A stretch of DNA of 64,000 nt, taken from assembly GCA_034670405.1 (NCBI GenBank), contig JAXDDX010000119.1, forward strand, positions 1,059,501 to 1,123,500. The letters run 5' to 3'. The notes beneath the pieces were generated by a model. It made no database searches and had not been told where the DNA came from. It saw only the letters and a list, made by a program, of their open reading frames with translations. The translations under genes were made by a program, and so were the position numbers. This stretch comes from Hoplostethus atlanticus. Its lineage: Eukaryota; Chordata; Actinopteri; Trachichthyiformes; Trachichthyidae. Shown here in pieces: positions 22,672 to 23,168 of the stretch; within the stretch, counting starts at the first letter, position 1; each line of letters starts with the position of its first letter.

Positions 22672-23168
22672 GAGAGAGACTCGGTTAGAGTGATTATAGA
22701 GACTGAGACTCATCTATAGTGATTGTAGACTGAGGCTTACATATGATGGTTATAGAGACTGAGACTCTGCTATAGTGGTTATAGACACGGAGGCCCACCT
22801 TTTGGTGGTTTTAGAGACTGAGACTCACCTATAGTGATCATAGAGACCAAGAATCATTGATCAGAGACTGAGACTCACCTATAGTGATTATAGAGACTGA
22901 GACTCACCTATAGTGGTTACAGAGACCGAGACTCACCTATAGTGGTTACAGAGACCGAGACTCACCTATAGTGGTTACAGAGACTGAGACTCACCTATAG
23001 TGGTTACAGAGACCGAGACTCACCTATAGTGGTTACAGAGACTGAGACTCACCTATAGTGGTTACAGAGACTGAGACTCACCTATAGTGGTTACAGAGAC
23101 CGAGACTCACCTATAGTGGTTACAGAGACCGAGACTCACCTATAGTGGTTACAGAGACCGAGACTCAC
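22672..23168 (-). repeat. kcnk9: 29 bp minisatellite built on the kcnk9 exon 1 splice donor
   Basis: About 17 units. On the minus strand each unit reads taaccactatag followed by gtgagtctcggtctctg. The first part equals the last 12 bases of kcnk9 exon 1 and the second equals the first 17 bases of the intron. Exact copies of CTATAG|GTGAGT occur with the donor at plus positions 22823, 22873, 22902, 22931, 22960, 22989, 23018, 23047, 23076, 23105 and 23134, besides the real donor at 23163-23168. From 22873 to 23163 the spacing is exactly 29 bp, ten steps. Units farther from the exon (22672-22872) are degenerate and vary in length. One is cut to about 20 bp. Confidence 0.95.
23163..23168 (-). other. 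kcnk9: kcnk9 exon 1 splice donor
   Basis: GTGAGT on the minus strand after ATAG, a strong U1-type donor. The intron phase is 1: the exon ends with the first G of the Gly codon in the TTIG filter motif. If unspliced, the frame reaches TAA six codons later. Confidence 0.9.

Follow-up and report, generated by a model that had tools for sequence, protein, structure and literature searches.

The junction between the first coding exon and the first intron of kcnk9 has been multiplied into a 29-bp minisatellite in the stretch of DNA analysed here (64,000 nucleotides, hereafter the window), and eleven further intact splice donors follow the authentic one on the minus strand. We believe that this is probably a junction-spanning minisatellite of the kind termed 'mirage', mostly tolerated by the gene, with the functional mRNA coming from the authentic donor. 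Under this reading, an early tandem duplication would have copied approximately the last 14 bases of exon 1 together with approximately the first 15 bases of intron 1; the units on the exon side would then have been multiplied and homogenised by recurrent unequal exchange or conversion, while the distal units decayed. The authentic, exon-side donor would supply the functional mRNA, and the extra donors would be mostly tolerated, with any leakage to them giving a 100-residue fragment. That an exact 29-bp array abuts a coding exon counts in favour of the minisatellite reading. The features concerned are listed in the order in which the gene is transcribed.

23170..23451, minus strand: first coding exon of kcnk9, codons 1-94, placed by alignment to KCNK9 chains and by tblastn
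23169, minus strand: last base of the exon, which opens the codon of the selectivity-filter glycine that intron 1 splits
23152..23180, minus strand: unit 1, the authentic junction, 12 exon bases and 17 intron bases, donor after 23169
23149..23151, minus strand: in-frame TAA, codon 101, read by any transcript using donor 2 or a later donor
22862..23151, minus strand: units 2-11, ten 29-bp copies with AG/GTGAGT in each
22841..22861, minus strand: unit 12, 21 bp, decayed, donor lost, boundaries set by hand
22812..22840, minus strand: unit 13, the last intact AG/GTGAGT, donor after 22829
22668..22811, minus strand: units 14-18, decayed, with no intact AG/GTGAGT

The attribution of the exon to kcnk9, made in the preliminary description, is borne out by alignment. 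In the structure databank, KCNK9 (TASK-3) chains align with all residues encoded by exon 1 (94/94; E 2.3e-49), whereas the best KCNK3 chain is a weaker match (E 2.5e-39). When a hand-entered human KCNK9 sequence was used as a tblastn query, residues 1-95 were matched at 23451-23167 with 83% identity; the Pfam domain Ion_trans_2 was found in the exon 1 product below threshold (20.2 bits against a cut-off of 22.5). In the tblastn alignment homology to KCNK9 ends at residue 95, the first glycine of what we take to be the pore signature, and intron 1 cuts the codon of this selectivity-filter glycine after its first base. Since no exon 2 was found within the window by tblastn with the same query, intron 1 probably extends over more than 22.8 kb.

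On the minus strand, AG/GTGAGT (the slash marking the splice junction) stands at the authentic junction and in eleven further copies, and the array holds 12 occurrences of AGGTGAGT. The last exon or exon-like bases lie at 23169, 23140, 23111, 23082, 23053, 23024, 22995, 22966, 22937, 22908 and 22879, in exact 29-bp steps, and that of the twelfth donor lies at 22829, after a gap of 50 bp. The eleven extra donors of the preliminary description, ten at exact steps and one beyond a gap, are thus present as it gave them, but the array is longer than it had stated and continues through decayed units to approximately 22668-22689. TRF reports a repeat at 22689-23180 (period 29, 17.3 copies, score 639). 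With unit boundaries placed by hand, the array resolves into 18 units, the authentic one among them. AG/GTGAGT is intact in 12 of these and not in the other six (units 12 and 14-18), of which units 14 and 16 retain the GT in a weaker context.

A chance origin of the repeated 8-mer is excluded. In 500 shuffles of the array stretch AGGTGAGT occurred on average 0.028 times (maximum 1), and in 30 shuffles of the minus strand of the whole window 1.3 times (maximum 3), using a home-made doublet shuffle that accepted output up to 2% short; the rest of the actual window contains three occurrences, one on the minus and two on the plus strand. We also considered derivation from a dispersed repeat, and rejected it within the window, in which no other copy of the array unit was found at up to five substitutions over 21 bases. 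An exact 19-base junction pattern gave no match in the viral_contigs collection.

The repeated unit is the exon-intron junction itself, 12 exon bases and 17 intron bases, as had been proposed. The exact last 12 bases of the exon precede nine of the 11 extra donors (donors 2-10), as the preliminary description had it, but not donors 11 and 12, each of which is preceded by eight contiguous exon-matching bases. A decayed junction at 22783-22770 matches the exon at 14 of 14 bases, and the ancestral shared block was therefore probably 14 bases and not 12. Even the most distal unit still matches nine of the 12 bases of the exon tail. Upstream of the shared tail the exon and the units are unlike; the base immediately before the 12-base tail is A in the exon, as in most distal units. 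Since exon-derived bases reach into the distal units, the junction was itself duplicated and, as far as one haplotype tells, a repeat devoid of exon-matching sequence did not pre-exist.

Divergence from the unit consensus grows with distance from the exon (Spearman 0.84, P 9e-5, for 15 of the 18 units, with units 12, 14 and 16 and, in every unit, positions 22 and 29 left out), the P value being a guide only as the units share ancestry. Units 1-9 differ solely at position 22, which is G in six and A in three, and no unit from 12 onwards, among those aligned in register, carries G there. At position 29, units 1-9 and 11 carry G, and unit 10 and units 12-18 carry A or C. Unit 1 agrees with units 2-9 in its G at position 29 and with five of these in its G at position 22; the authentic junction thus seems to be part of the turnover: it likely takes part in unequal exchange or conversion, in which the exon beyond the tail does not share. 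These patterns also bear on the suggestion that the array is an artefact of assembly or cloning. Short tandem arrays are frequently misassembled, and the copy number given here may err; however, graded decay, decayed units and G/A variants in no simple order resemble real repeat evolution, and we regard an artefact as very unlikely.

The tail of exon 1 (23170-23187, minus strand) has a codon usage of its own. Both ATA codons of the exon (91 and 94) fall within it, whereas ATC is used six times between codons 12 and 88, and two of its six codons end in G or C, compared with 78% of codons 1-88. This switch is possibly a trace of conversion running from the array into the exon, although the protein is conserved there.

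Reading past donor 1, the first in-frame stop is the TAA at 23151-23149, which precedes donor 2. Consequently, all eleven extra donors would encode one and the same fragment unless the RNA is re-spliced, predicted by translation to be 100 residues long and to end ESRSL after the filter glycine, and the authentic donor is the sole directly productive one. The preliminary description had pointed to a spliceosome faced with a row of near-identical donors; the spliceosome may indeed face a free choice among equal donors, but the stop that makes every extra one non-productive had gone unmentioned. The distance from stop to exon junction would be 9 nt for donor 2, 38 nt for donor 3 and 67-320 nt for donors 4-12. 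By the 50-55 nt rule of nonsense-mediated decay, transcripts from donors 2 and 3 would escape and those from donors 4-12 would be open to decay, if the junction between exons 1 and 2 is the sole one downstream, as we assume for the structure of this gene.

The same stop, met from every extra donor, would also suit a regulatory array, in which competition for U1 from the eleven extra donors would divert a regulated fraction of transcripts into the non-productive 100-residue form, kcnk9 output being tuned by the number of copies. The 12 donors do not differ over UAGGUGAGU (nine bases), and their computed pairing with U1 is good, at approximately -10.6 kcal/mol compared with -14.0 kcal/mol for a full-consensus site. 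SR proteins, SRSF1 among them, can shift the choice between neighbouring 5' splice sites towards the intron-proximal one (PMC5585400), which makes use of the later donors a real possibility; the available part of a study of tandem splice sites gives no rule for choosing among identical donors spaced by 29 bp (PMC2423196). Distal donors are, moreover, broken more often than expected per substitution: by hand count, the GT is struck by five of 14 substitutions in units 11, 13, 15, 17 and 18 (P 0.0025). However, when substitutions were merged into events by hand the excess fell to three of 11 (P 0.11), the test is post hoc, and units 14 and 16, which stand outside the count, keep their GT, that of unit 14 still pairing with U1 at a computed -8.8 kcal/mol. 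We take these counts as only a hint of selection on the distal donors, and we consider a regulatory array fairly unlikely.

RNA structure was examined as a possible selector of the donor and rejected. Donor 1 has a predicted probability of being unpaired of 0.003 and the remaining eleven donors have values of 0.000-0.002, every donor falling short of the local median (0.014). When shortened arrays were folded, the final donor was predicted to be as open as the first, or in some of them more open. Nor is the predicted fold of the array more stable than that of shuffled sequence (z 0.52; 67 of 100 shuffles at least as stable) or of repeated shuffled units (181 of 300 at least as stable). The accessibility edge of donor 1 is small and unconvincing, and the folding models give it no clear preference.

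Two further proposals turn on the units as splice sites. Since each intact unit contains AG/GT, a transcript spliced from a later donor would retain donor 1 and would carry a TATAG acceptor at its new junction; re-splicing from donor 1 to that TATAG would restore the exact joint between exons 1 and 2. AG/GT, as would be expected of a recursive splice site, in which a working 3' site is fused to a 5' site, is present in all 12 intact units, and extensions of at least 87 nt exist for donors 4-12. Single 29-nt steps, in contrast, are too short for a vertebrate intron, only ten of the 16 positions from -5 to -20 of the AG are pyrimidines in each of the units of donors 2-4, the three that were scored, and no good branch site was seen by eye. 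Such self-correction therefore seems highly improbable to us. With regulation and re-splicing combined, the array might act as a valve tunable by copy number, with twelve equal donors, the later ones leading to the truncated form or to re-splicing from donor 1 via the AG of a unit, and repeat length setting the output of the channel; this we judge quite unlikely. It could also be imagined that a multitude of U1 sites near the start of a very long intron protects the transcript from premature cleavage and polyadenylation. The array does offer 12 U1-like sites, and the intron probably exceeds 22.8 kb. Against this, U1 protection reaches approximately 1 kb, and the nearest AATAAA on the same strand, the only signal searched for, lies at 20372, approximately 2.8 kb past the exon; ordinary long introns, moreover, cope without such an array. 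We believe this proposal to be extremely unlikely.

The preferred reading, a mostly tolerated junction-spanning minisatellite, has precedents, and in view of them it is an overstatement that such a unit is out of the ordinary. In amphioxus, minisatellites at exon-intron boundaries, the 'mirages', have been described in Adh3, the globin genes BflGb6 and BflGb9, and TnC, with similar imperfect repeats in PGBD5; AG/GT signals are present in many of their units, which evolve in concert within a cluster (PMC3087553, PMC3902484). Units measure 10-72 bp in Adh3 and 150-160 bp in BflGb6, the latter with six and three copies in two haplotypes, and the boundaries of the BflGb6 cluster reportedly escape homogenisation (PMC3087553). 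Likewise, the tandem units of kcnk9 span an exon-intron boundary, with 12 exon and 17 intron bases in each, and keep AG/GTGAGT in many but not all cases (12 of 18). The distal edge units of kcnk9 also escape homogenisation but, unlike in BflGb6, the boundary unit on the exon side is homogenised too. The present array further differs in lying in KCNK9, in its single period of 29 bp and in numbering 18 units, 12 of which have an intact donor. The mirages are the closest kind to it, and are reported to leave splicing undisturbed (PMC3087553, PMC3902484), which counts in favour of the kcnk9 array being tolerated.

The closest vertebrate case found is the minisatellite of human IFI6 (6-16), which supplies multiple splice donors as the kcnk9 array does; two downstream units are reportedly used as donors, giving three mRNAs that encode protein isoforms (Turri, 1995, as cited in later work). 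Given such use, 'tolerated and unused' need not hold for kcnk9, although every extra donor here, in contrast to the coding isoforms of IFI6, meets a stop at codon 101 unless the RNA is re-spliced. The minisatellites in the growth hormone introns of Sparus aurata are also counted among the closest known systems. A literature search for kcnk9 together with minisatellite returned no title on such an array. The kind of array, though rare, is thus already known from amphioxus and IFI6, and what is new is its occurrence in a K2P channel gene, its twelve intact donors and the cut in the codon of the filter glycine.

The amphioxus work proposed tandem copies of AG/GT as raw material for intron gain, and the KCNK9 gene displays such copies. 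We considered and rejected intron gain by tandem duplication as a description of the array: the copies lie past the end of homology at residue 95, in the intron and not inside a coding exon, so this class does not apply. The array is, furthermore, a natural experiment in 5' splice-site choice: twelve sites share the same nine bases, eleven of these sites are set at regular intervals, and one alone is directly productive. Knowing which donors are used would disentangle the effects of position and exon context from that of sequence strength, an issue mostly addressed with artificial constructs.

Other features were noted in the window. An ORF at 33296-33679 (minus strand) gave no match in Pfam or among PDB sequences but may resemble TRAPPC9, which would fit the synteny of that gene with KCNK9 in vertebrates. 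A Pao/BEL-type retroelement lies downstream of exon 1, probably within intron 1 (7321-13163, minus strand), with stop-to-stop ORFs of 839, 940 and 209 residues. The Pfam scan covered the first two of these: the 940-residue ORF contains Peptidase_A17 (E 7.3e-49) and RVT_1, and the 839-residue ORF, probably gag-like, contains DUF1759. TRF also reports 3.6 tandem copies of a 48-bp unit within the 839-residue ORF (12537-12709) and a degenerate CTA triplet tract of 381 bp in the intron (19370-19750).
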